Part shown: positions 8,369 through 24,044 of the stretch, one piece after another
Layout of the letters: each line of letters starts with the position of its first letter
How positions within the stretch are numbered: the first letter of the stretch is position 1
The notes under the pieces: generated by a model
The model's database searches: none
Told to the model about the DNA's origin: nothing
The model's input: only the letters and a program-made list of their open reading frames with translations
Position numbers and translations under genes: made by a program
Origin: Pectinatus cerevisiiphilus
GTDB lineage: Bacteria > Bacillota > Negativicutes > Selenomonadales > Selenomonadaceae
DNA length: 64,000 nt
Direction: 5' to 3'
NCBI RefSeq assembly: GCF_004341685.1
Contig: NZ_SMAA01000001.1
Location: 124,001-188,000 of the forward strand

Positions 8369-9672
8369 AAAAATTATTAGCAGTTACAGGCTGCCCTACG
8401 GGAATTGCCCATACTTTTATGGCAGCAGAAGCCTTGCAAAGGGCAGCAGAAGCTAATGGCGTTCAAATGAAAGTAGAGACGAATGGCGCTGTAGGGGTTG
8501 AGAATGAATTAACAGCAAAAGAAATAGCAGAAGCAGACTGTATCATAATAGCGTGCGATAAAAATGTTGAAATGGAAAGATTTAATGGGAAGCCAATAAT
8601 AGAGGTATCTGTGACAGACGGTATAGCCAAGGCGGACGCTTTAATAAAGAAAGCCATATCAGGAGGAGTTGCTGTCCGTGGTGAAGAAAAGAAAAAAAAT
8701 TCTGAGATAACAGAGGAATTTTCTGGAGCACCATCTGTGGGACACGAAATATATAAACACCTAATGGCCGGTGTTTCCAATATGATTCCTTTCGTTGTTG
8801 CAGGTGGTATTTTAGTTGCTATATCTTTTTTATGGGGAATTTATTCTTTTGATCCTAATTCGGATCAATACAATGCTACTGCTGCTTTGCTTAAATCAGT
8901 CGGTGGAGCATCTATGGGATTAATGGTACCTATTTTGACGGCCTATATAGCAAATTCTATTGCTAATAGACCAGGACTTGTCGCTGGATTTGTTGCAGGG
9001 ACTATTGCTCTGACAACTGGGTCAGGATTTATTGGTGGTATTATTGGCGGCTTTATGGCTGGCTATTTTGCCAAATGGATGGTTAAAATACTTTCAGGAT
9101 TACCTAAAGAATTTGAGGGATTAAAATCAATTTTTCTCATACCATTGGTCACTGTAGCGGTTATTGGAACTATTATGGCTTTATTGGGCGACCCTGTTTC
9201 AGCGGTTAACAAATTTATGATGGATTTTTTGTCTAACCTGCAAAATTCGAATCCAATATTTCTCGGTATTGTAATTGGGTGTATGAGTGCGTTTGATATG
9301 GGGGGACCAGTTAACAAAGCAGCATATGTAACAGGAACGCTTTTGCTTGGACAAGGTAATTTTTATTTTATGGCTGGTGTTTCAGCAGCGTGTATTACAC
9401 CACCTTTGGTCATTGCAATTGCAGTTACTATTTTTCCGAAAAAATTTACTAAGGATGAAAGAGCAGCAGGCTTTGTAAATTATATACTGGGATGCACACA
9501 TATTACTGAAGGGGCGATACCATTTGCAGCAAAATCACCATTTAGAGTATTGCCAATATTGATGATGAGTTCATCCATATCGGCTGTGCTTACATATATG
9601 ATGAAGGTACAAGTACCGGCACCTCACGGTGGTTTTTTGATATTGGCATTAGTAGATAAACCTTTGGTATGA
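8365..9672 (+). CDS. Fructose-family PTS EIIBC, cut by an in-frame TGA
   Basis: The EIIB domain (residues 1-100, phospho-Cys10 in TGCPTGIAHTFMAAEAL) is joined to an EIIC domain (about 135 onward, polytopic, with SAFDMGGPVNKAAY and HITEGAIPFAAKSP). It imports and phosphorylates a ketose at C1. After PLV the frame meets TGA (9670-9672), but the same frame continues for 23 sense codons (VACILVGSVIGALVYG and so on) to a TAG at 9742-9744, 9 nt before the EIIA gene. One base change from TGG would restore a 459-residue protein ending in the expected last transmembrane helix. As written the protein lacks that helix. Given a neighbouring tagatose-type aldolase, D-tagatose is a candidate substrate; fructose is the other. 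Confidence 0.85.
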   Translation: MKKLLAVTGCPTGIAHTFMAAEALQRAAEANGVQMKVETNGAVGVENELTAKEIAEADCIIIACDKNVEMERFNGKPIIEVSVTDGIAKADALIKKAISGGVAVRGEEKKKNSEITEEFSGAPSVGHEIYKHLMAGVSNMIPFVVAGGILVAISFLWGIYSFDPNSDQYNATAALLKSVGGASMGLMVPILTAYIANSIANRPGLVAGFVAGTIALTTGSGFIGGIIGGFMAGYFAKWMVKILSGLPKEFEGLKSIFLIPLVTVAVIGTIMALLGDPVSAVNKFMMDFLSNLQNSNPIFLGIVIGCMSAFDMGGPVNKAAYVTGTLLLGQGNFYFMAGVSAACITPPLVIAIAVTIFPKKFTKDERAAGFVNYILGCTHITEGAIPFAAKSPFRVLPILMMSSSISAVLTYMMKVQVPAPHGGFLILALVDKPLV

Positions 9673-9753
9673 GTGGCATGTATACTAGTAGGGTCAGTCA
9701 TAGGTGCGTTAGTATACGGAATAACGAGAGGAAAACCGGAATAGGAGAATAAA

Positions 9754-10194
9754 ATGAATTTATTTGACGAAAAAACAATAAATCTTACACTAAAGGCAAG
9801 AAACAAAGAAGAAGCTATAGATGAAATTATAAATATGTTGTTTGCAGATAATATAATTAATGATAAGGATAAATATAAAGAAGCTATTTTAAAAAGAGAA
9901 AAAGATGCCACAACAGGGATTGGTTTTGGTATAGCTATTCCACACGCTAAAACAGATGCTGTTAATAAATCCCGTGTTGCAGTGGCAATTTCTCGTGATG
10001 GGGTAGATTTCGATAGTGCAGATAATAATTTGGCAAATTTGATTTTTATGATAGCAGTTCCAGAAGATGCTAATGATGAACATTTGCGGATATTGGCAAA
10101 ATTATCAAGAAAACTTATTAATCCAGTTTTTCGTGAACAGTTAATTACGGCAAAGGATAAACAGAGTATTTTGCAATATTTAGCCCAGATATAA
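9754..10194 (+). CDS. PTS EIIA component, fructose/mannitol family
   Basis: A 146-residue EIIA domain protein. The phosphorylated histidine is His64 in TGIGFGIAIPHAKTDAV, the standard type-2 EIIA signature. It receives phosphate from HPr and passes it to the EIIB domain encoded upstream. ATG 9754 follows AGGAGAAT. It closes the first PTS operon and is followed by a hairpin terminator. Confidence 0.93.
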   Translation: MNLFDEKTINLTLKARNKEEAIDEIINMLFADNIINDKDKYKEAILKREKDATTGIGFGIAIPHAKTDAVNKSRVAVAISRDGVDFDSADNNLANLIFMIAVPEDANDEHLRILAKLSRKLINPVFREQLITAKDKQSILQYLAQI

Positions 10195-10230
10195 AACCAA
10201 ATATTATTAAATTGTAGCTATAAAATTAAA

Positions 10231-10277
10231 AGAGGCTGTTGAGCATAAATTGTAATATGCGTACAGGCTCTTTTTTT
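10231..10277 (+). terminator. Terminator of the first PTS operon
   Basis: AGAGGCTGT (10231-10239) pairs with ACAGGCTCT (10263-10271) with one G-G mismatch, followed by seven T residues. Confidence 0.8.
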
Positions 10278-10406
10278 AGTGCGGTAATTTTATGTATTGC
10301 AAACAAAAAGTTTCCTAGCTGAGTAGAAATATACGAACTATGTTGATGGTCATATTTTTGGTATAGTAAAAATATAGATAAAGACATAATGCAAGGAGGA
10401 GTAAAA

Positions 10407-11474
10407 TTGTTTCAAGAAAAAATTCCTGCACAAATGAAGGCATTGGTCGTAGAAGGACCACAAAAATTGATATATAAAGATGTACCGGTGCCTCGAATAA
10501 ATGCAGATGAAGTTTTAGTTCGAGTGAAAGCTTGTGGTATATGTGGGTCAGATATTGCAAGAGTTAGAGATGGTGGGGTACATTTTTTCCCGATAATAGT
10601 AGGTCATGAATTTTCCGGCGTAGTGGTCCAAACAGGTAATAACGTAAAAAATGTTTCACTGGGAGATCATGTATCAGCAGCACCGTTACTGCCATGTGGT
10701 AGTTGTGAAAGTTGTTTAAGTGGACATCCGGCGATGTGTAATAGTTATTCTTTTATCGGTTCGCGGCAAAATGGGGCAATGGCTGAATATGTAGCGGTTC
10801 CCAGTAAGAATATTTTGCAATTGCCCAAAGATATGGAATTTGATAAAGCTGCATGTATCGAACCACTGACGGTAGCAATTCATGGAGTCGAAAGAGCTGG
10901 ATTACTGAGGAGTGGAAGTAGTGCGGTGGTTTATGGCTGCGGAACAATTGGTGTGCTTACAGTGCAATGTTTACTGGCGAAAGGAATAAAAAAAATAATT
11001 GCAATAGATATTGATGAGCATAAACTGCAGTTAGTAAAAAATATGGGTGTTAATGATATTATTAATTCTAGCAAGATAGATGTTGAAAAGTATTTCCAAG
11101 AAGAAGGGAAAGCTGATTATGTTTATGAAACTGCCGGAGTTAATTCTTTACAGTCACAAATTTTGAAATTGGTCAAGAAAAATGGAAGAGTAGTATATAT
11201 AGGGACAGCACAAAAAGATGTTACTATACCTGCAAAATCATTTGAGCTCATACTTCGGGGTGAATTAAATGTAACCGGTTCTTGGATGAGTTATTCTTCT
11301 CCGTTTCCAGGTAAGGAGTGGCGTGCTGCAATTGAGTATTTAAATTCAGAAATAGTAGATGTCAGTAAAATTATTACACATCGATTTCCACTCGAAGCAG
11401 GATATGAAGCATTTTTAACTATGCTTGATAAAGATAAAAGACCACTTAAAGTTATGTACTGCCTACCCAATTAA
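10407..11474 (+). CDS. gatD: Galactitol-1-phosphate 5-dehydrogenase
   Basis: A 355-residue zinc medium-chain dehydrogenase that oxidises galactitol-1-phosphate to tagatose-6-phosphate with NAD+. The catalytic zinc residues are seen in CGICGSD and GHEFSG, the structural zinc cysteines in PCGSCESCLSGHPAMC, and the Rossmann glycines in GCGTIG. GSWMSYSSPFPGKEW closely matches the corresponding stretch of E. coli GatD as I remember it. TTG 10407 is chosen because AAGGAGGAG ends 4-5 nt before it; the next Met is nine codons on. It stands apart from gatABC but is followed by their likely regulator and forms the second step of the galactitol route. Confidence 0.88.
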   Translation: MFQEKIPAQMKALVVEGPQKLIYKDVPVPRINADEVLVRVKACGICGSDIARVRDGGVHFFPIIVGHEFSGVVVQTGNNVKNVSLGDHVSAAPLLPCGSCESCLSGHPAMCNSYSFIGSRQNGAMAEYVAVPSKNILQLPKDMEFDKAACIEPLTVAIHGVERAGLLRSGSSAVVYGCGTIGVLTVQCLLAKGIKKIIAIDIDEHKLQLVKNMGVNDIINSSKIDVEKYFQEEGKADYVYETAGVNSLQSQILKLVKKNGRVVYIGTAQKDVTIPAKSFELILRGELNVTGSWMSYSSPFPGKEWRAAIEYLNSEIVDVSKIITHRFPLEAGYEAFLTMLDKDKRPLKVMYCLPN

Positions 11475-11502
11475 TTGATGATAAAAGCTGATTGAGGGAT
11501 AT

Positions 11503-13440
11503 ATGATGTTTACGCAGCGGCAACAAAAAATTTTGAGATTATTGGAAAAATATAAGAATATAACCAGCGACGAATTAGGAAGACTTATTGGCGTTTCTTC
11601 CAAAACGGTACGTATGGATATAAAAAAAATAATACCAACGCTTAAAAAAAATGTGGCACGAGTAAATATATCTACTCGTGTAGGATATAGTTTAGAAATA
11701 ATAAATAGAGAGCTTTTCGTGCGATTATTGGACGAAAATCAAGGAAATGCGTTAGATGCCAGCGGTAGAGCAAAGTATATAATACACAAACTGCTTATTA
11801 ATGCTTTGGAAAATAAAACAATATGCCAACAGGAATTAGCCGATGATCTTTATGTGGGGATATCAACATTAAAAATTAGCTTAAAAGATGTGGTTAAGAA
11901 ATTAGCAAAATATAATTTGGCTATAATAACTTATAAAAATAAAGGTATGCGAATCAAAGGTAATGAGAATCAAATTAGATATTGTATTTCTGAATATGTT
12001 TTTAGAATGGAAGACAAAAATGATAAAACAGATGATCTCTATAAACAGTTGTTTAGTGATATAGATATCGCAATTATTAAAAATATAATTATAAAAGTTA
12101 CTTCTTCTTATGAAATTATGTTTACAGATAGCTCCTTGAAAAATCTACTTGTTCATATTTTAATCACAATAAAGCGCACATTGTCCGGTTATAGTGCCTC
12201 ATATACTTTGCAGGAAAGTACAAAAATAGAAAAATGTAAAGAATTTTTGGTGGCAAGATCAATATTTGTAGAAATATACAGACAACTGCAAATTGATATT
12301 GCGACCGATGAAATTTATTATCTGACACAGCATCTTATTGCTAGTAAAAAATATAATGATGTTAATGGGCAGTCATCTGGATATGCAGGAGAATTGGTAC
12401 GTGCGATGTTGGAACGGGTATGCTTGGTTGCCGGAATGAATTTTACGCAGGATAAAAATTTAATAAGATGGCTTAAAGTACATTTGGAAGCGGTTATCCC
12501 GCGAATGAGATTTCGCATGAATATAAGAAATGAAATATTGGATGTTATAAAAAATGAATATCCATTAGCTTTTCAAATAGCTATAATCGCCAGTAAAGTT
12601 ATAGAAGAACGTGAAAAAATTGTAGTGAATGAAAATGAAATTGGTTATATTGCTATACATTTTGGAGCAGCACTGACTCGCATGGATGCAAGAAACAATA
12701 ACAGGAAAAAGGCATTAATAATTTGTGGTGGAGGAATAGGTACTGCAGTATTATTAAAGGCTAGGATTGAGGAGTATTTTAAAGACCTTATAACGATAGT
12801 AAAAACAGTACCGGGATATAAACTCAAAACAAAAGACTGTAATGATATTGATATAATTTTTACAACGATGCCTTTATCTTATATAAAGAACATAGATGAT
12901 AGTCAAAGAGAAAAATTAATTTATGTACAAAATCTCTTAAATGATAAAGAAAGGACACTCATACAACAAAAATTTTTTAATCCTGCTGAAGTATATAAAA
13001 CTAATATTGAAAAATTTTTTCGTGAGGATTGTTATAACATAGGAGGAAATTTTAAAGGGAAAAATGATGTTTTGGAATATTTAACAACACAATTAAAAAA
13101 TAAAAAATTAATAGATGATTTAACTTGCCAATCAGTATTTGAAAGAGAGAATACATCACCTACAGAGATTAGTAATTTAGTGGCTGTTCCACATCCTATG
13201 GTTAATAATGCTACGGTTTCTTCTATTGCGGTATTGATTCTTGATAAACCTATTCTTTGGGTAGAAGAAAATGTACAGGTAATATTTTTAATAAGTATAG
13301 CCAAGCCTGAGTTTTGCTTGTGGGAACCGATATTTTTGAAATTATTTGAATATCTTGTTAAAGAAAATGGTGTGAAGGAGATGATAAGTGGACAGAGCTA
13401 TACGGAGTTTATAAAAATAATTAAACAAAAATTCGATTAA
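11503..13440 (+). CDS. PRD-domain PTS-responsive regulator (BglG/MtlR type) of the galactitol genes
   Basis: A 645-residue multidomain regulator: a winged HTH (1-60, LGRLIGVSSKTVRMDI), a second HTH-like region (about 85-165), PRD1 and PRD2 (about 185-395, with conserved His in LLVHILITIKR, YLTQHLIA, LKVHLEAVIP and YIAIHFGAAL), an EIIB-like domain (about 405-495, Cys in IICGGGIGTAV) and an EIIA domain (about 500-645, His in LVAVPHPM). Such proteins are phosphorylated by HPr and by the cognate EII and act as DNA-binding activators of the MtlR/LicR kind rather than as antiterminators. It lies directly upstream of gatA. ATG 11503 or 11506 may be used. Confidence 0.88.
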   Translation: MMFTQRQQKILRLLEKYKNITSDELGRLIGVSSKTVRMDIKKIIPTLKKNVARVNISTRVGYSLEIINRELFVRLLDENQGNALDASGRAKYIIHKLLINALENKTICQQELADDLYVGISTLKISLKDVVKKLAKYNLAIITYKNKGMRIKGNENQIRYCISEYVFRMEDKNDKTDDLYKQLFSDIDIAIIKNIIIKVTSSYEIMFTDSSLKNLLVHILITIKRTLSGYSASYTLQESTKIEKCKEFLVARSIFVEIYRQLQIDIATDEIYYLTQHLIASKKYNDVNGQSSGYAGELVRAMLERVCLVAGMNFTQDKNLIRWLKVHLEAVIPRMRFRMNIRNEILDVIKNEYPLAFQIAIIASKVIEEREKIVVNENEIGYIAIHFGAALTRMDARNNNRKKALIICGGGIGTAVLLKARIEEYFKDLITIVKTVPGYKLKTKDCNDIDIIFTTMPLSYIKNIDDSQREKLIYVQNLLNDKERTLIQQKFFNPAEVYKTNIEKFFREDCYNIGGNFKGKNDVLEYLTTQLKNKKLIDDLTCQSVFERENTSPTEISNLVAVPHPMVNNATVSSIAVLILDKPILWVEENVQVIFLISIAKPEFCLWEPIFLKLFEYLVKENGVKEMISGQSYTEFIKIIKQKFD

Positions 13441-13466
13441 AACAATCAGGGGGGCTGGTTTTATAC

Positions 13467-13940
13467 ATGCTCAAAGAAGAGTTTTTTAATGAAAAGATTA
13501 TATGTCTTGATGTTGAAGCCAATAATAATGAAGAAGTTATGAAAAAATTAGGGCAAATGCTTATAAAAAATAAATATATAGATGCATCTTATGTACAAAG
13601 TGTTATTTTACGAGAAAAAAGTTTTCCTACAGGTTTGGCTTTAGCAAATACGGGAATTGCAATACCACACGCTACTCCTGAAAATAATGTATTTAAGAAT
13701 GGGATGGCAGCTGTTCGTCTGAAGACTCCAGTTCAATTTAATTCTATGGAAGATCCTGAAAAAAAAATAGATGCTAATTTGGTATTCATGTTAGCTTTAT
13801 CTGAAGTTGGAGAACATCTTGGTATATTAAAAAGGCTTTTTACTATGTTTCAGAATGAGGAGCTGGTAAAAAAATTACAAAAAAGCAATGATAAAGAAAC
13901 TTTTTTTAAGGTATTAGCAAATAGTTTAATGGATAAGTGA
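13467..13940 (+). CDS. gatA: Galactitol PTS EIIA
   Basis: A 157-residue soluble EIIA of the GatA-like group. His68 in ALANTGIAIPHATPENN is the phosphate acceptor. The length and the split arrangement with separate EIIB and EIIC genes downstream match galactitol-family systems. The start follows a G-rich site at about 13450 with a rather long spacer. It begins the gatABC-gatY-kinase operon, 26 nt after the PRD regulator. Confidence 0.88.
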   Translation: MLKEEFFNEKIICLDVEANNNEEVMKKLGQMLIKNKYIDASYVQSVILREKSFPTGLALANTGIAIPHATPENNVFKNGMAAVRLKTPVQFNSMEDPEKKIDANLVFMLALSEVGEHLGILKRLFTMFQNEELVKKLQKSNDKETFFKVLANSLMDK

Positions 13941-13978
13941 GTTAGGTATTTAATTATAATAAAAGGAGTTAAAGTAAA

Positions 13979-14257
13979 ATGAAAAAGATTATTGTGGCTT
14001 GCGGTGGTGCTGTAGCAACTTCAACTGTGGCAGCAGATGCAATTAAGGAATTATGCGAAAAAAATGGAATATCAGCTGAAGTCATCCAGATGCGTATTAT
14101 TGAGATAGAAAATAATTTGGACGGGATTGATTTAGTAGTTACAACTATGAAGATAGTACCTAATTTTGATATACCATATGTCAATGGTATGCCGTTTTTA
14201 ACTGGTATAAATAAAGAGGAAACGGAAAAAAGGATTTTATCGTATATAAAAGACTAA
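13979..14257 (+). CDS. gatB: Galactitol PTS EIIB
   Basis: A 92-residue EIIB protein. The phospho-cysteine is Cys8 in KKIIVACGGAVATSTVAAD, the P-loop pattern of GatB-type EIIB. It takes phosphate from the GatA-like protein and phosphorylates the incoming sugar alcohol bound to EIIC. AAAGGAG lies ahead of the ATG, and gatC begins 16 nt downstream. Confidence 0.92.
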   Translation: MKKIIVACGGAVATSTVAADAIKELCEKNGISAEVIQMRIIEIENNLDGIDLVVTTMKIVPNFDIPYVNGMPFLTGINKEETEKRILSYIKD

Positions 14258-14273
14258 GAAAGGTGGAGGCGAC

Positions 14274-15629
14274 ATGGATTTCATTTTACAAATAGTTCAG
14301 TATTTTGTGAATTTAGGACCAGCAGTTATGCTACCAATTATTATTTTTATAGTATCCTTGATTTTAGGACAGTCATTTGGAAAGTCTATAAAAAGTGGTA
14401 TTTCTATTGGGATAGGTTTTGTCGGCATTGGTCTTGTAATCGGATTAATGCTTAATAATTTAGCACCAGCTGCTAAAGCGATGTCTCAAAATTTTGGGAT
14501 AAGTATGAGTTTAATTGATATTGGTTGGCCAGGTTCATCGCCGATGACGTGGGCAAGTAGAATAGCATTGGTAGCCATACCGGTGGCAATTATTGTAAAT
14601 ATTATAATGCTGGCGTTGAGGTTTACGCGTGTTGTAAATATTGATATATGGAATATTTGGCATTTCGCGTTTACTGGTGCCATTGTGGATATAGCAACAG
14701 GCAGCTATACTCTGGGAATAATTGCGGTAGCCGTGCATGCGGCATTTGCTTATAAAATTGGTGACTGGTTTGCTCCTGTTGTTGAAAATTACTTTGGTTT
14801 GGAAGGAATTGCAATGCCTCATGGTACGACTGGTTGGTTTGCACCAATTTCGGTTTTTGTAGATGGAATAATGGACAGAATACCAGTTGTTAGAGATATT
14901 GATATAAATCCTAAACATTTGAAAAATAAATTTGGTATTTTATGTGACCCGGCTGTTATGGGCGGAATAATGGGTGTTATTATAGGAATTTTGGCGGGCT
15001 ACGATGTTCAGCAGATTTTGACATTAGGAATACAAATGGCAGCTGTAATCGTCTTAATGCCGGTAGTTGTCAAGTATATTATGGGAGGATTAATTCCCGT
15101 ATCTGAAGTCGCAAGGACAAAATTGCAAAAGAAATTTAAGAACTCTAAATTTTATATTGGTTTAGATTGTGCACTGTTATTAGGAGATCCCGTCGTAGTT
15201 ACAGCATCGCTTTTATTTATACCATTGACGATTCTTATAGCGGCCATTGTTCCAGGGAATCAAATACTGCCATTTGGTGATTTACCGACAATTGGTTTTT
15301 TTATAGCGATGGCAGTAGGGGTACACAAAGGCAATTTGTTTAGAACATTAATTACAGGATCAATTGTTATGTTTATGGCTATATGGATATCTAACCAGAT
15401 GATTGGTTTTCATACAATTCTTGCGGCTAATGCAGGACAATTGACTAATTCGGCAGCTCGAGTAGCTTCTTTGGACCAAGGGGGAAGTCCTGTAACTTAT
15501 ATAATAACTCAAGTATTAGATATGACAAATGTTGCAGGTTTTGCAGCAATAGGGTTGTTTTATCTTATATGTGTAATTTGTACAATAGTTTGGTCTAAAA
15601 AACAGTATAAGATGCTTAATAATAAATGA
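14274..15629 (+). CDS. gatC: Galactitol PTS EIIC (permease)
   Basis: A 451-residue inner-membrane permease with about ten or more hydrophobic segments. Family features include IIFIVSLILGQSFGKSIKSG near the N terminus, DIGWPGSSPMTWASR and EGIAMPHGTTGWFAP. It binds galactitol, which leaves as galactitol-1-phosphate after EIIB transfer, the substrate of GatD. Its placement after gatA and gatB and before gatY supports galactitol rather than another polyol, though a related alditol cannot be excluded. Confidence 0.9.
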   Translation: MDFILQIVQYFVNLGPAVMLPIIIFIVSLILGQSFGKSIKSGISIGIGFVGIGLVIGLMLNNLAPAAKAMSQNFGISMSLIDIGWPGSSPMTWASRIALVAIPVAIIVNIIMLALRFTRVVNIDIWNIWHFAFTGAIVDIATGSYTLGIIAVAVHAAFAYKIGDWFAPVVENYFGLEGIAMPHGTTGWFAPISVFVDGIMDRIPVVRDIDINPKHLKNKFGILCDPAVMGGIMGVIIGILAGYDVQQILTLGIQMAAVIVLMPVVVKYIMGGLIPVSEVARTKLQKKFKNSKFYIGLDCALLLGDPVVVTASLLFIPLTILIAAIVPGNQILPFGDLPTIGFFIAMAVGVHKGNLFRTLITGSIVMFMAIWISNQMIGFHTILAANAGQLTNSAARVASLDQGGSPVTYIITQVLDMTNVAGFAAIGLFYLICVICTIVWSKKQYKMLNNK

Positions 15630-15705
15630 GGCATCTTATAAATTTAAATGTAGTTTTGGAAGTTAAAGGCATGTACCGTAATTGTATATAATTTAGGAGA
15701 AATAA

Positions 15706-16557
15706 ATGATTTTATCAACAAGAGAAATGTTACTGAAAGCACAAAAAGAACATTATGCTGTACCGGCATTCAATATTCATAATATGGAAACATTACAAGT
15801 AGTTGCACAAACAGCAGCAGAAATGAGATCACCTTTGATTATAGCAGCTACACCATCGACAGTGGGATATGCCGGTGCAGACTATATTGTAGCGATGGCA
15901 CAGGTAGCTGCACAAAAAGCAAATATACCAATTGCAGTTCATCTTGATCATTTTGAAGATATAGAGCAAATAAAAAGGGCTATCGACGTTGGTGTTAAAT
16001 CATGCATGATTGATGCATCTAAGTTACCTTTTACAGAAAATATAAATAAAACGGTAGCAACAGTGGCATATGCGCATCGTTATGATGCTGTTGTAGAAGC
16101 TGAATTAGGGAAACTTATTGGCATAGAAGATCAAGTGGTAGTCAGTTCTAAAGAGGCTGTTTATACTGAACCAGATGATGCAGTAGCTTTTGTTGCAGCC
16201 ACGAAAATAGATTCTCTGGCAGTAGCTATTGGGACTGCGCATGGATTGTATAAAGGAGTACCTAAACTTGATTTTGCACGTTTGCAGAAGATTCGTGAGA
16301 AAGTGGATATTCCTTTAGTATTGCATGGTGCCTCCGATGTACCAGATGAAATGGTAGAAAAGGCTATAAGTTTAGGAATTTGCAAAGTTAATATAGCAAC
16401 CGATTTAAAAATTCCTTTTTCCGCCGCCGTTAAAAAATATTTTGTGGAAAATCCGTCAGCAAATGATCCACGAAAATATATGACACCAGGGAAAGAAGCA
16501 ATGAAGGCTGTGGTTAAACATAAAATAAAAGTCTGTGGTAGTGCTGATAGATATTGA
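15706..16557 (+). CDS. gatY: Tagatose-1,6-bisphosphate aldolase GatY, copy 2
   Basis: A 283-residue class II aldolase, by eye roughly three-quarters identical to the copy at 6574-7425, with the same motifs ([43 protein letters not shown]). It has one extra residue in the VVVSSKEAVYT loop. Its zinc-binding histidines are conserved, so both copies look active. AGGAG lies close to the ATG at 15706. Together with the kinase that follows it completes galactitol catabolism to triose phosphates. Confidence 0.9.
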   Translation: MILSTREMLLKAQKEHYAVPAFNIHNMETLQVVAQTAAEMRSPLIIAATPSTVGYAGADYIVAMAQVAAQKANIPIAVHLDHFEDIEQIKRAIDVGVKSCMIDASKLPFTENINKTVATVAYAHRYDAVVEAELGKLIGIEDQVVVSSKEAVYTEPDDAVAFVAATKIDSLAVAIGTAHGLYKGVPKLDFARLQKIREKVDIPLVLHGASDVPDEMVEKAISLGICKVNIATDLKIPFSAAVKKYFVENPSANDPRKYMTPGKEAMKAVVKHKIKVCGSADRY

Positions 16558-16572
16558 AGATGGTGATAAATA

Positions 16573-17502
16573 TTGATTTTAGTAATAAGCTTAAACTCAT
16601 CAATGGACAAAATATATACTGTTAAGAACTTGCTTTACGGTGGTGTAGCACGTGCAGATAGTGTAAATAATACTGCCGGTGGAAAAGGGATACATGTAGC
16701 TAATGTAATAACAAATATAGGTGAAGAGTGTCTTTTAACCGGTTTTGTCGGTGGTAAAACAGGGGAGTTTATACAAAAGCGTCTCAATGAGAGAAAGATA
16801 GAACATGAATTTGTTTGCGTAGAGACTGAAACACGTACTTGTATTAATATAATGACACCTGACGGGAAACAAACAGAAATTTTAGAACCGGGATCTTTTA
16901 TAGAACAGGCACAGCAGCAGCTTTTTTTAAGAAAATATAAGCAGCTTCTTCAAAGGGCAGAAGTAGTAGTTGCCTCAGGGAGTTTACCTGTTAATGTAAG
17001 TAGTGATTTTTACGGAGTGCTGGGAAGTTTTGCTAATGAGGCGGGTAAAAAGTTCTTATTAGATACAAGCGGAGATGCGTTGCAAAAAAGTATTTTTTGT
17101 AAACCGTATTTAGTTAAACCTAATTTAGCTGAAGCAGAAAAATTTACTGGGTGTTCAATAAAAGATGTATATACTGCGGCAAAGGCTGTTCACGCACTTC
17201 AGAGAAATGTCACTGTACCGGTTATATCTATGGGAAAAGACGGGGCTGTTATTAGTTATGAAAATAATGTATATCATGTGCTTCCACCACAGATTCCTTT
17301 GGTAAATGCTGTGGGGTCAGGGGATGCTTTTGTGGCAGGAATGGCGATAGGTTTTTATCGTAAAGATAGTATAGAAAATATAATTAGGCTTGCTTGCGCG
17401 TGTGGCACGGCCAATGCGATGGAGGCCGAAAGCGGGTGTGTAAAAAAAGCAAATGTTGAAAAGTTGTTGGAAAAAATTGTAATAAAAAAATTGAATATAT
17501 AA
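16573..17502 (+). CDS. PfkB-family kinase (tagatose-6-phosphate kinase / 1-phosphofructokinase type), copy 2
   Basis: A 309-residue kinase of the LacC/FruK group with NSSMDKIYTV at the N terminus, GGKGIHVANV, ASGSLPVNV, and the catalytic AVGSGDAFVAGM near the C terminus. It probably converts tagatose-6-phosphate, the GatD product, to tagatose-1,6-bisphosphate for the GatY encoded 15 nt upstream. The start is TTG 16573 after GATGGTGAT. It is only distantly similar to the first PfkB kinase, so the two probably serve different monophosphates. It is followed by a run of hairpins. Confidence 0.87.
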   Translation: MILVISLNSSMDKIYTVKNLLYGGVARADSVNNTAGGKGIHVANVITNIGEECLLTGFVGGKTGEFIQKRLNERKIEHEFVCVETETRTCINIMTPDGKQTEILEPGSFIEQAQQQLFLRKYKQLLQRAEVVVASGSLPVNVSSDFYGVLGSFANEAGKKFLLDTSGDALQKSIFCKPYLVKPNLAEAEKFTGCSIKDVYTAAKAVHALQRNVTVPVISMGKDGAVISYENNVYHVLPPQIPLVNAVGSGDAFVAGMAIGFYRKDSIENIIRLACACGTANAMEAESGCVKKANVEKLLEKIVIKKLNI

Positions 17503-17588: not shown

Positions 17589-17610
17589 GGTGTATGATAA
17601 AACGAGTGAA

Positions 17611-17650
17611 AATAATTTCCAAGCCTATAAAGTTTGGAAATTATTTTTTT
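17611..17650. terminator. Third hairpin, terminator-like
   Basis: AATAATTTCCAA (17611-17622) is the perfect complement of TTGGAAATTATT (17634-17645), followed by further T residues on the plus strand. Confidence 0.6.
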
Positions 17651-17742: not shown

Positions 17743-19698
17743 TTGGTAATTGATACACAAAATAAACGTATAATAAAAATTCTAAAAATGTTTACGCATA
17801 ATAATAATAATCAGAGTGTAAGTAGTGCCAATATTGCCGCTTTGTTAGGCGTCAGTTCAAAAACTATAAGAAATGACATTAAAGAATGCAATACTTTTTT
17901 AAAGAAGTATGGTGCTGTTTTTCTTGCAGAGCCAAGTGTCGGTTATGTATTGAAAATTAATGATGAAAAAAAATTCATGTCCTTCAAAAAGAGCCAATGT
18001 TTTAATGAATGTTCTGGTTGGAAAAAACAGAATATTATTCCTTCTGAATATAATGATCGTGTTTCTTTTATAATTAAAGAATTACTCATTAATGCCTTAT
18101 ATAGAAAAAGTATTACCGAAACAGAATTAGCAGATGAATTATACATTAGTTTGTCTACCTTGAAAAAATATATTAAAGATATTAAAAAGAGTCTATATAG
18201 ATTTAATATTGAACTTGTTGCGGATAATACTGGTATTAGTTTGAAAGGGAAGGAAGAACGAATAAGGTATTGTATTTCTGAATATGTTTTTAATAGTAAT
18301 GATTTGGTAGATCTAGAAAAAAATGCATTTTATAAGGAAATGTTTACTTCAATCAAAACAGATGATGTAAAAAAAATACTGTTTGATAATATTCAAAAAT
18401 ATAATATCCATTTGACGGACATTGCTTTTAAAAACTTGCTAGTACATATCATTATTACAATGAAGCGTGTCGGAAGTAAAAATACAACCGATTATGAAAA
18501 AGAAGAAATGGAGCTGTTGGAAAAGTCAATATATTTTGCTGCTGCCTATAATATTGTGACAGATATCTGCACAATATTGAATGTAGATATAAAAAATGAA
18601 GTTTATTACTTAACACAGCATTTTATTTCTAGTAAAAAATTGATGATTAATGATGATACAAATGGTAAAGATATACATAAAATTCTCGTTAAGCAAATAA
18701 TACAAAAAATTAATGCCAAGATGGGAATAGATTTTTCTGAAGATAATGAACTTATTTCTGGATTGATAATTCATTTGGGGGCGGCAATAACACGATTAAG
18801 ATTTAATATGAATATTCGCAATGAAATATTGGCTTCAATAAAAAAAGGGTGTCCCTTAGCGTTTGAAATGGCCATTGTTGCTGGAAACATACTAGAAATA
18901 AATGAAAAATTGCAAATGAATGAAAATGAGTTGGGCTTTTTAGCAATTCATTTTGGGGCAGCTTTAGAACGTAAAAAAATGTTTACGTGCCCACCAATCA
19001 CCGCGATAATTGTTTGTGCTACAGGTCTTTCGACAGCAATGTTTGTAAAAAGTAAATTACAGCGTCGTTTTGGTAAGACTTTAAAAATCATTAAGGTTAT
19101 TCCTTTATATGAACTGACAGAGCAATTGATTGATGGAGTGAATTTCATATTTACTACAGTACCAATAAGCAGTATAAAATCCACCAAGATCATTCAAGTA
19201 GAGCCAATTTTAACGGAAAATGACATGGATAAAATTGAAGAAAAGCTTATTAATGATGACAATGAAAATGCTGAAGATATATTTTTTCATGAAGATCTGT
19301 TCTTTCCAGCTTTACAAGCTGATGATAAATATGAAATCTTAGAAAAATTGACAACAGTCATGTTAAAAAAAGGCTATATTGATGAAAAAGTAAAAGCTTC
19401 TGTGTTCATTCGTGAAAAATTATCTTCTACGGAATTGGGTGGTCTGGTTGCCATACCGCATGCATTGGAAAATTATAGAGATCAGTCGATAGTTGCGGTA
19501 GCCGTATTGGTAAAACCAATTGTTTGGGATAAAGAAAAGGTTCAAGTAGTGTTTTTATTGAGCATACCCAAGAACAAATGTAAAAGCTGGGAGCCAATAT
19601 TTGAACGATTATATAATTATTTCATAAGTGAATTTGGGGTAAATGACTTAATTAAAAATCCTACTTTTAATGTATTGATGGAGAAAATAAAACGGTAA
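17743..19698 (+). CDS. PRD-domain PTS-responsive regulator of the ascorbate-type PTS operon
   Basis: A 651-residue regulator with the same architecture as the protein at 11503: HTH (LGVSSKTIRND), second HTH-like region, two PRDs (His in LLVHIIITMKR, YLTQHFIS, LIIHLGAAIT and LAIHFGAAL), an EIIB-like domain (Cys in IIVCATGLSTAM) and a C-terminal EIIA domain (His in LVAIPHALEN). Its start is a TTG after GGGAGGTGAT, an almost full match to the anti-Shine-Dalgarno sequence. It sits 21 nt upstream of an EIIA gene and so probably activates the module-iii operon. The DNA is very AT-rich compared with the tetrapyrrole genes later in the window. Confidence 0.88.
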   Translation: MVIDTQNKRIIKILKMFTHNNNNQSVSSANIAALLGVSSKTIRNDIKECNTFLKKYGAVFLAEPSVGYVLKINDEKKFMSFKKSQCFNECSGWKKQNIIPSEYNDRVSFIIKELLINALYRKSITETELADELYISLSTLKKYIKDIKKSLYRFNIELVADNTGISLKGKEERIRYCISEYVFNSNDLVDLEKNAFYKEMFTSIKTDDVKKILFDNIQKYNIHLTDIAFKNLLVHIIITMKRVGSKNTTDYEKEEMELLEKSIYFAAAYNIVTDICTILNVDIKNEVYYLTQHFISSKKLMINDDTNGKDIHKILVKQIIQKINAKMGIDFSEDNELISGLIIHLGAAITRLRFNMNIRNEILASIKKGCPLAFEMAIVAGNILEINEKLQMNENELGFLAIHFGAALERKKMFTCPPITAIIVCATGLSTAMFVKSKLQRRFGKTLKIIKVIPLYELTEQLIDGVNFIFTTVPISSIKSTKIIQVEPILTENDMDKIEEKLINDDNENAEDIFFHEDLFFPALQADDKYEILEKLTTVMLKKGYIDEKVKASVFIREKLSSTELGGLVAIPHALENYRDQSIVAVAVLVKPIVWDKEKVQVVFLLSIPKNKCKSWEPIFERLYNYFISEFGVNDLIKNPTFNVLMEKIKR

Positions 19699-19719
19699 AC
19701 AAAAGAGAGGTTAATAATA

Positions 19720-20163
19720 ATGCTGAAGGATCTGACTAATGAAAAATTGGTCTGCTTAAATATTGAGGCGCGTGACTGGAAAGAAGCAATTTATAAATCG
19801 GCAGAGCCTTTATTATTGGCCGGGAAAATAAAGAAGAGTTATATTGAGGCAATTATAAATACTATTGAAGAAACCGGGCCGTATATAGTAATCACAAAAA
19901 ATGTAGCATTACCTCATGCAAGAGCCGAATACGGTGCAATAGAAAGTGCCATTGGTATTGCCACATTAAAAAAACCTGTATGTTTTGGAAGTGAAGAAAA
20001 CGATCCAGTTAAGTATATATTTTGTTTGAGTGCCCATGATAATACAAGTCATTTAATGGCATTGGCTGATTTGACTGCTTTGCTGGAAAGAAAAGATTTT
20101 TATAAAATGTTGGATCAAGCACAATCAGCTAGTGAAATTATTAGTTATATTAATAATCTGTGA
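19720..20163 (+). CDS. PTS EIIA, ascorbate/UlaC-like
   Basis: A 147-residue EIIA with the acceptor His66 in TKNVALPHARAEYG. The ALPHAR pattern and pairing with UlaB- and UlaA-like genes place it in the ascorbate-type (L-ascorbate/SgaT) family. It transfers phosphate from HPr to the EIIB encoded next. Related family members carry substrates other than ascorbate, so the name gives a mechanism and not a substrate. Confidence 0.87.
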   Translation: MLKDLTNEKLVCLNIEARDWKEAIYKSAEPLLLAGKIKKSYIEAIINTIEETGPYIVITKNVALPHARAEYGAIESAIGIATLKKPVCFGSEENDPVKYIFCLSAHDNTSHLMALADLTALLERKDFYKMLDQAQSASEIISYINNL

Positions 20164-20186
20164 TCATAAAAAGAAAGGTGATAAAA

Positions 20187-20474
20187 ATGGAATTCAAAGG
20201 GTTAGTTGCATGTCGCGCAGGGGTCGGGTCAAGTTTAATGCTTAAGATTAAGTTAAATCAAGTGATAAGTGAACAAAAGCTGCCAATCAAAATAGAACAT
20301 GGTTCACTTGATGCTATTGCTGGATTTAATGGTTCTCTAATTATTACATTAAGTGATGTAGCCAAAGAATTAGAGGTAAAGAAACTTCCTCAAGAAATTA
20401 TTGGAATAAATAATATTATGGATAAAAAGGAAATATTAGAAAAATTAAAGACGTTTATAGCGAAAAATGGATAA
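20187..20474 (+). CDS. PTS EIIB, ascorbate/UlaB-like
   Basis: A 95-residue EIIB with phospho-Cys9 in GLVACRAGVGSSLMLK, the C-x2-G-x-GSS pattern of the ascorbate family. ATG 20187 is preferred over an earlier GTG at 20160 because AGAAAGGTGAT (20171-20181) lies just upstream; the earlier start overlaps the EIIA stop codon. Confidence 0.88.
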   Translation: MEFKGLVACRAGVGSSLMLKIKLNQVISEQKLPIKIEHGSLDAIAGFNGSLIITLSDVAKELEVKKLPQEIIGINNIMDKKEILEKLKTFIAKNG

Positions 20475-20505
20475 ATAAAATAATTTATGTTAATGGAGGA
20501 ACAGT

Positions 20506-21768
20506 ATGGATTTTTTAGTCAGTTTGTTGAGTAATCCAGCCATTCTCTTAGGGTTAGTAGCTTTTGTAGGTCTTCTTGCACAAAAGAAATCAGGAACAGA
20601 AGTAATTACGGGGTCAACAAAAACAGCTATAGGCTTTTTAATCTTTGGCATAGGCGCAGGGACTATGACATCGGCCCTACAACAATTTAATACAATGTTT
20701 CAGGCAGGATTTCATATAACAGGGGTTATTGCTTCGCCGGAGGCAGCTACAGCAATGGCTCAAAGTACGTATGGTTTTGTAACATCATCTATTCTCATTT
20801 TGGGCTTTATTATGAACTTAGTTTTTGCACGGTTAACACCTTTTAAAAATGTATTTTTTACTGGTGGACATAGCTTGTTTTTTGCGTGTGTGCTGGGATT
20901 ACTTTTAAAATTTCATGGATTTAGTGATGGAATAGCAATTGCTATTGGTGGGATTCTTTTAGGCTTTTGCTCAGCTTTTTTGCCGCAACTATGTCAACCT
21001 TTTATGCGCAAAATGACAGGGCACGATGAACAAGCTATAGGCCATTTTAATATGCTGGCTTATGCACTATCGGGATATATAGGCAAAATATTTTTTTCGA
21101 AATGGGAAAAATACAGTACTGAAGATATTAAATTTCCTAAATGGTTATCCTTTTTCCGTGATTTCCTTATGGGATGCGCTACTGTAATGACCATATTGTT
21201 TTATGTTTCGGCATTGTTTGCAGGCCCAGCAGTAGTAGGAAAATTAGCAGGTTCTGTGCATTGGTTAGTATTTCCAGGAATATTGGCATTACAATTTACT
21301 GCTGGTATGTCAGTATTAATGACAGGCGTAAGAATGTTTTTAGGGGAAATAACAGCAGCTTTTGTAGCTATTTCTGAAAAATTTATTCCTGGCTCCAGAC
21401 CAGCACTTGATGTTCCGACAGTATTTCCATATGCACCTACAGCCGTTATTGTTGGATTTATTTGTTCATATGCAGCAGGGTTAGTTGCGATTGCAGTCAT
21501 GATAGTTTTTAAATTTTCTGTCGTTATTATTCCTGCCGCCCATATTTGCTTTTTTTCTGGGGGGACAGCTGGTGTTTTTGGTAATTCCTTCGGAGGTTGG
21601 CGGGGAGCAGTAATAGGTTCTTTTGTTGTAGGTTTGTTGTTGGCATTTTTACCGTGCGTTTTATATCCTTTATATGGTGAAATGGGTGTGCTTGGTTCTA
21701 CCTTCCCAAATGTCGATTACAATATTGTAGGTATGATTTTGAATAGTGTCTTAAATATATTTCAATAA
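20506..21768 (+). CDS. PTS EIIC, ascorbate/UlaA-like permease
   Basis: A 420-residue polytopic membrane protein of the UlaA/SgaT family: LLSNPAILLGLVAFVGLLAQ at the N terminus, KSGTEVITGSTKTAIGFL and a C-terminal FFSGGTAGVFGNSFGGWRGA. It transports and, with EIIB, phosphorylates an unidentified sugar or sugar acid. None of the ascorbate-degradation genes (UlaG lactonase, UlaD decarboxylase, UlaE and UlaF epimerases) follows, so ascorbate itself is unlikely. The genes downstream are a SIS isomerase and two aldolase-family proteins. Confidence 0.88.
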   Translation: MDFLVSLLSNPAILLGLVAFVGLLAQKKSGTEVITGSTKTAIGFLIFGIGAGTMTSALQQFNTMFQAGFHITGVIASPEAATAMAQSTYGFVTSSILILGFIMNLVFARLTPFKNVFFTGGHSLFFACVLGLLLKFHGFSDGIAIAIGGILLGFCSAFLPQLCQPFMRKMTGHDEQAIGHFNMLAYALSGYIGKIFFSKWEKYSTEDIKFPKWLSFFRDFLMGCATVMTILFYVSALFAGPAVVGKLAGSVHWLVFPGILALQFTAGMSVLMTGVRMFLGEITAAFVAISEKFIPGSRPALDVPTVFPYAPTAVIVGFICSYAAGLVAIAVMIVFKFSVVIIPAAHICFFSGGTAGVFGNSFGGWRGAVIGSFVVGLLLAFLPCVLYPLYGEMGVLGSTFPNVDYNIVGMILNSVLNIFQ

Positions 21769-21808
21769 TTGAATGGATAGAATTTACATTAATAAAGGAG
21801 TATGTGGT

Positions 21809-22438
21809 ATGCAGTCTAATGAATATGATAATTTAAATATGCTTAATAAATATTTGAATACATCTATGAATGAGTTGCAAAGATTTGTGGACAAGTTAAA
21901 TAAAGATGGGCTCCAAAAGGCATTGCAATTGATTTTGAAGGCAGAGTGCAACCATCATCGGATACATGTTACTGGGATTGGCAAACCGGCACATGTCGCA
22001 GGGTATATTGCTTCACTTTTTTCTTCAATAGGAACGCCAACTTATGAATTGAGTGGCATCGAAGCCGTTCATGGTTCATCCGGGCAGGTAATGCCAGGAG
22101 ATGTTGTTATAGCGATAAGTAACAGTGGAGAAACAAAAGAATTGCAATACACGGTGCAAACATTAAAAAATAATGGGGCACAGATTATTGCGGTCACAGG
22201 AAATCCTTCTTCATGGCTGGCCACTGAATCAGAAATATGCCTTTTTGCTGGAGTGAACTATGAAGGGGATTCTTTGAATAAACCGCCAAGAACATCCATT
22301 TTGGCTGAAATAATTTTATTGCAATGTTTAAGTGTGATGTTGCAACAGGCAAAAAATCTAACGATTGATACGTATGTAAAATGGCATCCAGGTGGTGCAA
22401 TAGGTAAATCTATAAATGAAACTAAGGTGAGAGTATGA
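21809..22438 (+). CDS. SIS-domain sugar-phosphate isomerase (KdsD/GutQ-like, no CBS domains)
   Basis: A 209-residue protein made of a single SIS domain: RIHVTGIGKPAHVAGYIASL, the phosphosugar loop AISNSGETKELQ and a C-terminal WHPGGAIGKS. These motifs match arabinose-5-phosphate isomerases of the KdsD/GutQ type, but the paired CBS domains that follow in those enzymes are absent. By context it may isomerise the sugar phosphate delivered by the PTS encoded upstream. ATG 21809 is used because AAAGGAG (about 21794-21800) sits 8-9 nt ahead. Its stop overlaps the next start by 4 nt (ATGA), showing coupling. 6-Phospho-3-hexuloisomerase is an alternative reading. Confidence 0.8.
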   Translation: MQSNEYDNLNMLNKYLNTSMNELQRFVDKLNKDGLQKALQLILKAECNHHRIHVTGIGKPAHVAGYIASLFSSIGTPTYELSGIEAVHGSSGQVMPGDVVIAISNSGETKELQYTVQTLKNNGAQIIAVTGNPSSWLATESEICLFAGVNYEGDSLNKPPRTSILAEIILLQCLSVMLQQAKNLTIDTYVKWHPGGAIGKSINETKVRV

Positions 22439-23333
22439 AAAGCACGCTTTTAAATGGGATTATTTGTGCGATGGTAACTCCTTTTGATGATCAACAAAAA
22501 ATTAATTTAGAAGCAACGAAAAATTTAATTGAACAATTACTACAAAATAAAATTAATGGTATTTTTATTTTAGGTACAAATGGTGAATTTCATGTTATGA
22601 GTAATGAAGAGAAGCTTTCTTTTGCTGATTTTGTTGTGCAGACGGTAAAGCATAAAGTGCCGGTTTTTGTTGGTACAGGAAGTAACAGCACTCAAGAAAC
22701 TATTGAACTTTCACAAAAGATGGAGAAAATTGGTGTAGATGCGTTATCAATAATTACACCTTTTTTAGTACCTATAACACAGAATGAATTAGTTGAGCAT
22801 TATAAAAGAATTGCCGCTAGTGTTTCTATACCAGTTATTTTATATAATATACCAAAAAATACAGGAATTAGTATAGCAGTGGAAAGTGTAACAAAATTGG
22901 CACAAGTCAAGAACATCATAGGTATAAAAGACAGCAGTGGTAATATAGATAACATTATAAATTATATACAGGTAACAAAGGAATATGATTTCTCAGTTCT
23001 CTCTGGATCGGATTCCTTGATATTAAAAGCATTAAAAGCAGGGGCAACAGGTGCTATCGCTTCAACAAGTAATTTATTGAGTAAGATTGATGTAGGTATA
23101 TATAATGATTTTTGTATTGGTAATATGGAAGAAGCTGAAAAAAACAACAGTCAATTGAACAGTTGAGAGCTGTGCTTAAATTAGGGACAGTACCTTCTGT
23201 TATCAAGAGAGCAGTATCTTTAGCTGGTATTAATGTGGGACCTGCACGTTATCCCGTTGCTGATATAAGTGAAAATATTGATAAAGAAATTGTAAAGATG
23301 CTTGATAGTTATGGCATAAAACATGTCGGATAG
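22435..23333 (+). pseudogene. DHDPS/NAL-family aldolase, frame broken at a slippery A7 tract
   Basis: The first 236 codons encode a TIM-barrel dihydrodipicolinate synthase/N-acetylneuraminate lyase family protein: GIICAMVTPFD, FILGTNGEFHVMS, the catalytic Tyr in ILYNIPKNTG and the Schiff-base Lys in IGIKDSSGN. At A AAA AAC (23139-23145) the zero frame runs on to a TGA at 23164-23166. The -1 frame continues with 62 sense codons (including LRAVLKLGTVPSVIKRAVSL) to a TAG at 23331, giving the normal family length of about 299 residues. Either one A was lost from an A8 run, or the ribosome slips back one base on this canonical heptamer. The likely role is a retro-aldol step on a 2-keto-3-deoxy acid; the substrate is unknown. 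Confidence 0.82.
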
Positions 23334-23405
23334 AGGGTTGGCAATTATGCGATAAATGCAATTACCAACTTAGGTGTATATTCTTTAGAAAGCAGGGGGA
23401 GGACC

Positions 23406-24044
23406 ATGTGGAAAAAAGCGGCAGCTTTGCAAATGATTTCGGACACGGGAATGATGGTTATTATACGTACTGATGAAGAAGAGGAAGCATATTTAATTGC
23501 AAAAGCGGTGATAGAAGGTGGGGCACGCGCGTTAGAGTTTCCTTATGCTGTTCCCGGAGCGTTGCGTATTGTACAGAGGCTAACGCATGAATATAGTAAT
23601 ATATTAATTGGTGTGGGGACTGTCTTAGATAGTGAACACGCTGCTGCCGCACTTCTTGCCGGAGCAAATATGTTGGTCAGTTCAAGTTTTTCTCCTTCAA
23701 TGTTAAAAATGGCACATCAATATCAAGCAGTGACGGTATGTGGTGCTATGTCACCAACTGAAATAGATGCAGCTATGGCAGTGGGTACTGATATGGTAAA
23801 ATTATTTCCGGCCGATTTTTTCGGACCGCAGTATATAAAAACTGTTCACGCACCTATGCCATATGCGCCTATTGTGCCGTTTGGTGGGGTGACAATAGAG
23901 AATGTTGGTGAATGGTTTGCTGCAGGAGCTGTTGCTGTAGGTGTCGGTAGTTATATAACAAAAGCCCACAAAAAAGATGGCAATTACGATCATGTTGTAG
24001 AAGCTACTAGCAAATTTATAAAAAGAATCAAAGATATTAGATGA
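23406..24044 (+). CDS. KDPG/KDPGal aldolase family protein (Eda-like)
   Basis: A 212-residue protein of the 2-keto-3-deoxy-6-phosphogluconate aldolase family: GARALEFPYAV (catalytic Glu), GVGTVLD, SSSFSPSML, the Schiff-base Lys in MVKLFPADFFG, PFGGVTIENV and GVGSYI. Typical Eda enzymes have ALKFFPAE and PTGGI here; these slightly different loops may mean an altered substrate. It would cleave a 2-keto-3-deoxy phosphosugar acid to pyruvate and an aldehyde phosphate. It lies 72 nt after the DHDPS-family gene and is the last gene of module iii. GGGGGAGG lies close before the ATG. Confidence 0.85.
   Translation: MWKKAAALQMISDTGMMVIIRTDEEEEAYLIAKAVIEGGARALEFPYAVPGALRIVQRLTHEYSNILIGVGTVLDSEHAAAALLAGANMLVSSSFSPSMLKMAHQYQAVTVCGAMSPTEIDAAMAVGTDMVKLFPADFFGPQYIKTVHAPMPYAPIVPFGGVTIENVGEWFAAGAVAVGVGSYITKAHKKDGNYDHVVEATSKFIKRIKDIR

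Follow-up and report, generated by a model that had tools for sequence, protein, structure and literature searches.

The window analysed here is a stretch of 64,000 nucleotides of the Pectinatus cerevisiiphilus genome (RefSeq assembly GCF_004341685.1, contig NZ_SMAA01000001.1, positions 124,001 to 188,000 of the forward strand), and its subject is an operon of seven genes encoding a PRD regulator, the EIIA, EIIB and EIIC proteins of an ascorbate-type phosphotransferase system (PTS), a sugar-phosphate isomerase of the SIS family, a DHDPS/NAL-family aldolase and a KDPG/KHG-aldolase (Eda) family protein. The operon is a real, sporadic and horizontally scattered unit, found in Negativicutes, Clostridia, Bacilli, Coriobacteriia and on plasmids. 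From its gene neighbourhoods we tentatively propose that it catabolises a 3-deoxy-2-ulosonic acid, most likely 3-deoxy-D-manno-oct-2-ulosonate (Kdo); the neighbourhood argument is strong for a phosphorylated ulosonate, a pyruvate aldolase and an aldose-phosphate isomerase, and weaker for Kdo by name. Kdo is the eight-carbon acid sugar of the lipopolysaccharide of Gram-negative outer membranes and of plant cell-wall pectin.

In the proposed pathway the PTS would import Kdo and phosphorylate its terminal carbon to give Kdo-8-phosphate, the DHDPS/NAL-family lyase (in two relatives an HpcH/HpaI aldolase instead) would split this into pyruvate and D-arabinose 5-phosphate, and the SIS protein would convert the latter to D-ribulose 5-phosphate, a step on which its fold, catalytic residues and neighbourhoods agree. 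The pentose phosphate pathway would then take the ribulose 5-phosphate, as the order of transketolase and transaldolase-family genes in some relatives suggests. If pyruvate and arabinose 5-phosphate are the products, Kdo-8-phosphate would be the acid cleaved. The Eda-like aldolase may, as a guess, serve a second phosphorylated 2-oxo-3-deoxy acid or a stereoisomer, and the PRD protein would sense PTS phosphorylation, as is established for its family, and control the operon.

The loci compared were anchored on the SIS isomerase, the best 80 among named genomes (L011 to L090) being joined to the window, L006 and L007 to give 83. Of these, 77 were scored (L048, L068, L076 and L077 gave no isomerase match, and L089 and L090 carry classical isomerases). 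Neighbouring genes were called by profile models for aldolase, PTS, kinase and transporter families; near-identical loci (L016/L017/L022/L023 and L006/L007) were kept in the counts, Fisher values are nominal, and L035 was counted as non-PTS, its PTS type being absent from the profiles used. A PTS was found in 35 of the 77 scored loci (26 of ascorbate type and 9 of mannose type), and all 35 carried a pyruvate-aldolase family, 34 of them DHDPS; the combinations were DHDPS with Eda (24), DHDPS alone (8), DHDPS with Eda and HpaI (2) and HpcH/HpaI alone (1). A separately found locus, G525, consists of regulator, EIIB, EIIC, HpaI and SIS genes only. Because unrelated aldolases adjoin the same PTS and isomerase, pyruvate cleavage appears to be the shared step. 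An earlier note on this DNA had read the operon as yielding pyruvate and not as serving ascorbate catabolism, which these aldolases and the lack of Ula genes support, and the linkage of isomerase and aldolases to the PTS on which it depended holds in many genomes.

Among 151 genomes of the family to which the window belongs, four (P. cerevisiiphilus itself counted) have an isomerase of at least 60 % identity, and in each of them DHDPS and Eda genes adjoin it. The isomerase was found in 2 of 398 genomes drawn from the phylum (the window's own and G525) and in 1 of 37 drawn from the class; the operon is sporadic, since its isomerase is so rare in the family and phylum draws. Eight plasmid records carried the isomerase (7 Enterococcus and 1 Clostridioides difficile). 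The C. difficile and E. gilvus plasmids (among L131 to L133) have the whole gene set, the EIIA of the former, if any, lying inside the regulator. On the E. faecium plasmid, typed as conjugative, only about 520 bases separate EIIB from SIS, so the EIIC is missing or elsewhere, and another EIIB/EIIC pair lies on the opposite strand about 6 kb on. Three plasmid records annotate dapA, ketohydroxyglutarate or KHG/KDPG aldolase and PTS subunits, with "ascorbate" (for EIIC) as the sole substrate word, and a DNA-level search of E. coli genomes gave no match. Among the open-licence PMC papers listed for the gene set, for Kdo aldolase and for the catabolism of Kdo, none was recognisable by title or start of abstract as dealing with such an operon. 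With no substrate assigned in the three annotated records or in the literature searched, the pathway can still be called uncharacterised, as the earlier note had it.

The same note had placed isomerisation before cleavage, an order that is not supported. Pyruvate aldolases require a 2-oxo-3-deoxy acid, and the interconversion of aldose and ketose cannot yield one, so cleavage most likely comes first. It is improbable that an aldose enters through the PTS, is turned into a ketose phosphate by the isomerase and is then cut by the aldolases into pyruvate and an aldehyde phosphate. The position of the isomerase gene directly 3' of EIIC in most ascorbate-type loci would suit such a route, as would L031 and L035, in which isomerase and transketolase occur without an aldolase and which indicate that a sugar, imported or phosphorylated, can serve the isomerase as substrate. 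Against it, the window operon holds no dehydrogenase or dehydratase to make a 2-oxo-3-deoxy acid (dehydratases were not searched for in the relatives), a point qualified for dehydrogenases by a 2-hydroxyacid dehydrogenase gene near the ascorbate-type locus L060. L031 and L035 (the PTS of the latter, of another type, read by eye) could equally speak for a pentose PTS, for example for D-arabinose, feeding the isomerase and the pentose phosphate pathway with the aldolases as passengers or parts of another route, and ascorbate-type EIIC relatives with transketolase point the same way; the presence of an aldolase, from one or more of three families, in every PTS locus argues against this, and we rate it slightly lower still.

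The preferred route, with cleavage first and a C5 phosphate as product, draws on the company that the isomerase keeps. A PTS and a kinase are a near-exclusive choice beside it. Leaving the window aside, none of the other 34 PTS loci had a PfkB kinase within 7 kb on its strand (9 of them have less than 5 kb on one or both sides; L006 and L007, re-read with longer flanks, were still without one). Of the 42 non-PTS loci whose isomerase is of the same clade, 36 had such a kinase beside or fused to the isomerase, the other 6 having neither PTS nor kinase. RbsD/FucU occurred in 9 of the 42. A DHDPS-family gene was present in 23, and its subfamilies differ from the one seen in the PTS loci; TRAP or Tct acid transporters accompanied 6 of these 23 and 0 of the 19 without an aldolase, and ABC permeases 1 of the 23 versus 5 of the 19. 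Such a pattern would be expected of an isomerase whose substrate is an aldose phosphate, formed either by a PTS ahead of cleavage or by a kinase once cleavage or import has taken place. DUF2961 or DUF4185 genes were found in 7 of the 19 aldolase-free non-PTS loci and in 0 of the 58 others (four proteins, two per family, were checked by Pfam and the rest called by cluster). These families are described as D-arabinan hydrolases, GH172 and GH183, in PMC10115798, and their place beside the isomerase fits a route from D-arabinose by a kinase to arabinose 5-phosphate and on to ribulose 5-phosphate. Six PTS operons (L016 to L019, L022 and L023) are continued by a split transketolase, four of them also by a transaldolase-family gene; the transketolase of L037, a lone and distant gene, was kept outside the six. 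These genes therefore point to a C5 product, and C3 plus C5 gives C8.

Another 2-oxo-3-deoxy sugar acid as substrate (KDG, Kdn, an epimer of Kdo at C4, or Ko with hydroxypyruvate as product), likewise cut first and with the isomerase acting on the aldose phosphate, is unlikely, less so than the other alternatives. The two or three aldolase families in 26 of the 35 PTS loci suggest more than one substrate or stereoisomer, Lys133, Gly162 and Gly163 in all 27 Eda-like proteins fit KDPG-like acids, and the 2-hydroxyacid dehydrogenase of the mannose-type loci would fit hydroxypyruvate. The transketolase genes after the six PTS operons and the D-arabinan genes near the isomerase, on the other hand, favour a pentose phosphate as product and hence a C8 acid, and KDG would not need the isomerase.

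The mannose-type PTS with a D-2-hydroxyacid dehydrogenase was seen in L019, L021, L024, L025, L028, L029, L056, L062 and L064, seven of which (not L028 and L029) also have a PucR-type HTH regulator; one member each of the dehydrogenases and regulators was checked by Pfam. PfkB~SIS fusions, mostly deltaproteobacterial, lie beside a divergent DHDPS-like gene in L070, L072 to L075, L078 to L080 and L082 to L088; one such DHDPS-like protein gave a weak Pfam match (23.9 bits versus a cut-off of 22.1), and the transporter profiles used matched nothing near the fusion loci. A BNR_2 sialidase-like gene is present in L071 and L057; the L071 protein is not claimed as a Kdo hydrolase, its only solved relative, a weak one, being an exo-sialidase.

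The window SIS protein has no CBS domains, and its best solved sequence relatives are phosphosugar isomerases including KdsD and c3406. The catalytic Lys, Glu, Glu and His of KdsD, which we take to be K59, E111, E152 and H193, are kept as K71, E120, E164 and H205, with equivalents in 15, 14, 15 and 15 of 15 aligned PTS-locus proteins. Among solved structures, the model of the protein (mean pLDDT 83.1) was closest to KdsD 2xhz (Z 23.4, 1.6 Å over 168), 3etn (Z 23.4, 2.9 Å over 191), c3406 5uqi (Z 22.1, 1.9 Å over 184) and 3fxa (Z 22.0, 2.2 Å over 187); by the title of structure 5uqi, c3406 was crystallised with arabinose 5-phosphate. Domains, nearest solved relatives and catalytic residues bear out the CBS-less KdsD-like isomerase of the earlier note. 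The operon SIS proteins share the clade motifs GKPxHVA and EGDxLNKPPRxSI, and the window protein is proposed as a putative arabinose-5-phosphate isomerase of its own clade. The classical isomerase of L089 is 53 % identical to c3406 and lies within a kinase and RbsD gene set.

The DHDPS-family open reading frame (ORF) is 243 amino acids (aa) long, stops at 23166 and covers positions 2-237 of the 289-position Pfam model (244.5 bits); the remainder of the protein (KKQQSIEQLRAVLKLGTVPSVIKRAV...HVG) follows seven A's in the -1 frame, with its stop at 23331-23333. In five aligned relatives (L006, L007, L011, L013 and L029) the reading frame runs through this place without interruption. Enterococcus raffinosus L034 likewise has a short DHDPS-family ORF, of 105 aa. 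Slippage into the -1 frame would be permitted by the heptamer A AAA AAC at the site. A programmed frameshift is not supported, as the downstream RNA gains no stability over its shuffles (z -0.28) and the five relatives do without one, and pseudogene, assembly error and slippage cannot be told apart as the cause. The Schiff-base Lys165 and catalytic Tyr137 (NanA numbering) are kept in 33 of 33 PTS-locus DHDPS proteins, and two NAL-family enzymes, E. coli NanA and human NPL, are described in PMC13220900 as cleaving Kdo in vitro. The operon protein is proposed as a candidate ulosonate-phosphate aldolase. The fold of the L013 protein, used as a stand-in for the broken window copy, is closest to DHDPS and its relatives, which are nearly tied, and gives no hint of substrate.

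Public records name this gene dapA, of lysine biosynthesis, and the score of the window protein with TIGR00674 (212.3 bits, above the cut-off of 206.15) and the nearest folds agree with that name. Such a role is nevertheless very improbable: the P. cerevisiiphilus genome has a second DapA-like gene closer to E. coli DapA (44 % identity versus 33 % for the operon protein), the linkage to the PTS and isomerase is fixed, and Arg stands in 0 of the 33 PTS-locus proteins at the position of E. coli DapA residue 138, presumably a contact to the substrate carboxylate.

All 27 Eda-like proteins of the loci have Lys133, Glu45, Thr73, Phe135, Gly162 and Gly163 (E. coli numbering); Lys133 is presumably the Schiff-base residue, and Gly162 and Gly163 we take to be functional positions. 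Arg49 is replaced throughout (Arg in 0 of 27), and Thr occupies this position too in two aligned solved chains, parts of designed nanocages that presumably derive from Thermotoga KDPG aldolase. The altered loops to which the earlier note had drawn attention are weak evidence, since the key residues are kept, the loss of Arg49 is general and Phe at the Thr161 position (PFGGVT) occurs in only 2 of the 27. The window protein falls below two NCBIfam cut-offs (TIGR01182, 150.9 versus 156.05; NF005119, 205.6 versus 238) and is a putative accessory pyruvate aldolase.

Several observations weigh against Kdo as the substrate. The route is built on gene identities, the conservation of the unit and the choice between PTS and kinase, the activities being predicted only, and every locus was found through the isomerase. 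The DHDPS-family gene is apparently broken in the window copy. The DHDPS proteins of PTS loci, TRAP/Tct loci and kinase-fusion loci form different subfamilies and so need not share one substrate, and the four transaldolase-bearing loci are near-copies in the tree, so the link to the pentose phosphate pathway rests on about three lineages. The window SIS protein lies outside the clade of proven KdsD, GutQ and c3406 (100/100, bootstrap not settled; L078, L016 and L007 were left out of the tree as duplicates), is 30.5 % identical to c3406 and scores below the KpsF cut-off (TIGR00393, 115 bits versus 203.7); the E120 equivalent is Gln in 1 of the 15 PTS-locus proteins and more variable in non-PTS relatives. 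Next to the PTS loci studied, no gene could be recognised as encoding a Kdo hydrolase. The second aldolase is unexplained by Kdo alone, and so is the 2-hydroxyacid dehydrogenase of the mannose-type loci. Below 50 % identity, EIIC relatives belong to other operons (of the 25 matches, 10 lie with transketolase genes), and the window EIIC itself passes the ascorbate-IIC model NF006919 (445 bits versus a cut-off of 380).

That NCBIfam match, and records naming a "PTS ascorbate transporter subunit IIC", would suit L-ascorbate utilisation, which is disfavoured and has very little probability. The profiles of E. coli UlaG, UlaD, UlaE and UlaF matched nothing in the 83 loci, the window included, as the earlier note had stated for the operon, and the UlaA profile matched 26; a genome-wide search with no positive control found nothing for UlaD and, for UlaG, a match of 20.5 bits only, and UlaE and UlaF were searched in the loci only. 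The loci and the Ula system are alike in the superfamily of their EIIA, EIIB and EIIC and differ in the absence of the four catabolic genes and in the EIIC, that of the window being only 31 % identical to E. coli UlaA. With EIIC as anchor, 24 genomes out of 398 gave 25 matches; within 1.5 kb flanks a clear isomerase gene accompanied only the two closest, those of the window and G525, and L112 gave a doubtful 25-bit isomerase match. An ascorbate-type PTS followed by a split transketolase was seen in L099, L101, L103 to L105, L107 to L109 and L112, and its PTS product should be a ketose phosphate.

The features of the operon are listed in Table 1. The ORF list and Pfam and NCBIfam profile searches placed all seven genes on one strand as claimed. 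Their tight spacing holds for overlaps or gaps of 4-31 bases but not for the last gap, of about 240 bases before the Eda-like gene, and the description as a complete import-and-cleave pathway, although all gene families are present, needs a caveat because the DHDPS-family gene is frameshifted here. The EIIB likely starts at an in-frame ATG near 20187 (MEFKGL). A terminator-like hairpin may mark the border to an upstream galactitol/tagatose operon, to which the LacC/1-PFK kinase gene at 16573-17502 belongs; because the hairpin lies between, this kinase is probably outside the PTS operon, whose gene list, as previously reported, holds no dehydratase, dehydrogenase or kinase. Two further tandem PTS gene sets lie upstream (8365-17502), in the order fructose-type EIIBC and EIIA, an alcohol-dehydrogenase-like gene, a second PRD regulator, galactitol-type EIIA/B/C, GatY and LacC/1-PFK (gene names before 14274 were read by eye). 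At Rfam's own cut-offs the only RNA element in the window was tRNA-Pro, and the sequence between the DHDPS and Eda-like genes folded no better than shuffles.

Table 1 Features of the operon and its upstream border (positions in the window)
Feature	Position	Strand	Basis
Intrinsic-terminator-like hairpin, 17 pairs	17608-17648	+	Consensus scan only
PRD regulator	17743-19698	+	HTH_11, Mga, PRD x2, EIIB-like and EIIA_2 domains; TTG start as listed
PTS EIIA (PTS_EIIA_2, ascorbate/mannitol type)	19720-20163	+	Profile matches
PTS EIIB	20160-20474	+	Profile matches
PTS EIIC, ascorbate/galactitol superfamily	20506-21768	+	Profile matches
CBS-less SIS sugar-phosphate isomerase	21773-22438	+	Profiles, alignment, fold comparison, tree
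DHDPS/NAL-family aldolase, N-terminal 243 aa, frame 0	22435-23166	+	Schiff-base Lys and Tyr present
DHDPS-family aldolase, C-terminal part, -1 frame after A7 run	23141-23333	+	Translation, alignment with relatives
KDPG/KHG-aldolase (Eda) family protein	23406-24044	+	Profiles, alignments

Taken as a whole, an undescribed Kdo PTS route scattered through Bacillota and Coriobacteriia, in which Kdo-8-phosphate is dismantled in the reverse logic of its biosynthesis and pentose-phosphate genes are attached, is a possibility we hold a little more cautiously than the choice of Kdo as substrate; an aldolase would stand in place of Kdo-8-phosphate synthase, followed by the arabinose-5-phosphate isomerase of the new clade. 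If this is true, Kdo has a dedicated catabolic PTS in scattered bacteria, including some Enterococcus and Clostridioides plasmids, and bacteria without lipopolysaccharide feed on the lipopolysaccharide of others or on pectin RG-II; several of the bacteria bearing the locus are, by record title, from gut or rumen samples. The public names (dapA of lysine synthesis, ascorbate IIC, ketohydroxyglutarate aldolase) would then hide the pathway, and the gain would be a concrete substrate, a three-step pathway and a role for a broad SIS clade that has so far been uncharacterised.

Among known systems, the E. coli nan operon for sialic acid (nanA-nanT-nanE-nanK-nanQ) is alike in that a 2-ulosonic acid is cleaved by a DHDPS/NAL lyase into pyruvate and an aldose, which reaches central metabolism in phosphorylated form. 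It is paralleled by the non-PTS loci with acid transporters and a kinase, and YhcH/NanQ-like genes recur close to the isomerase in L013 and L071, and at a greater distance and on the opposite strand in L054. The operon described here would differ in PTS uptake, cleavage of the phosphorylated acid, the lack of a kinase and an SIS isomerase replacing the epimerase. The E. coli CFT073 island operon, whose limits we take to be c3405-c3410, was considered as the same system and rejected because its gene set is another; it shares the PRD regulator, PTS and CBS-less SIS isomerase, and has a 2-hydroxyacid dehydrogenase as do the mannose-type relatives, but its EIIC is larger, its isomerase belongs to another clade, it has no pyruvate aldolase, and its MalY/PatB and dehydrogenase genes are not in the window operon. 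In the D-arabinan (GH172/GH183) loci a related SIS isomerase stands next to a PfkB kinase and to DUF2961/DUF4185 genes; unlike the window operon, these loci have neither aldolase nor PTS. A D-arabinan locus with an isomerase and a kinase, which may be comparable, is mentioned in PMC10509167. The window operon also resembles D-glucosaminate (Dga) operons. These combine a PTS, a phosphorylated sugar acid and a KDPG-type aldolase, whereas the window operon has, in place of an ammonia-lyase/dehydratase, an isomerase and a DHDPS-family aldolase.

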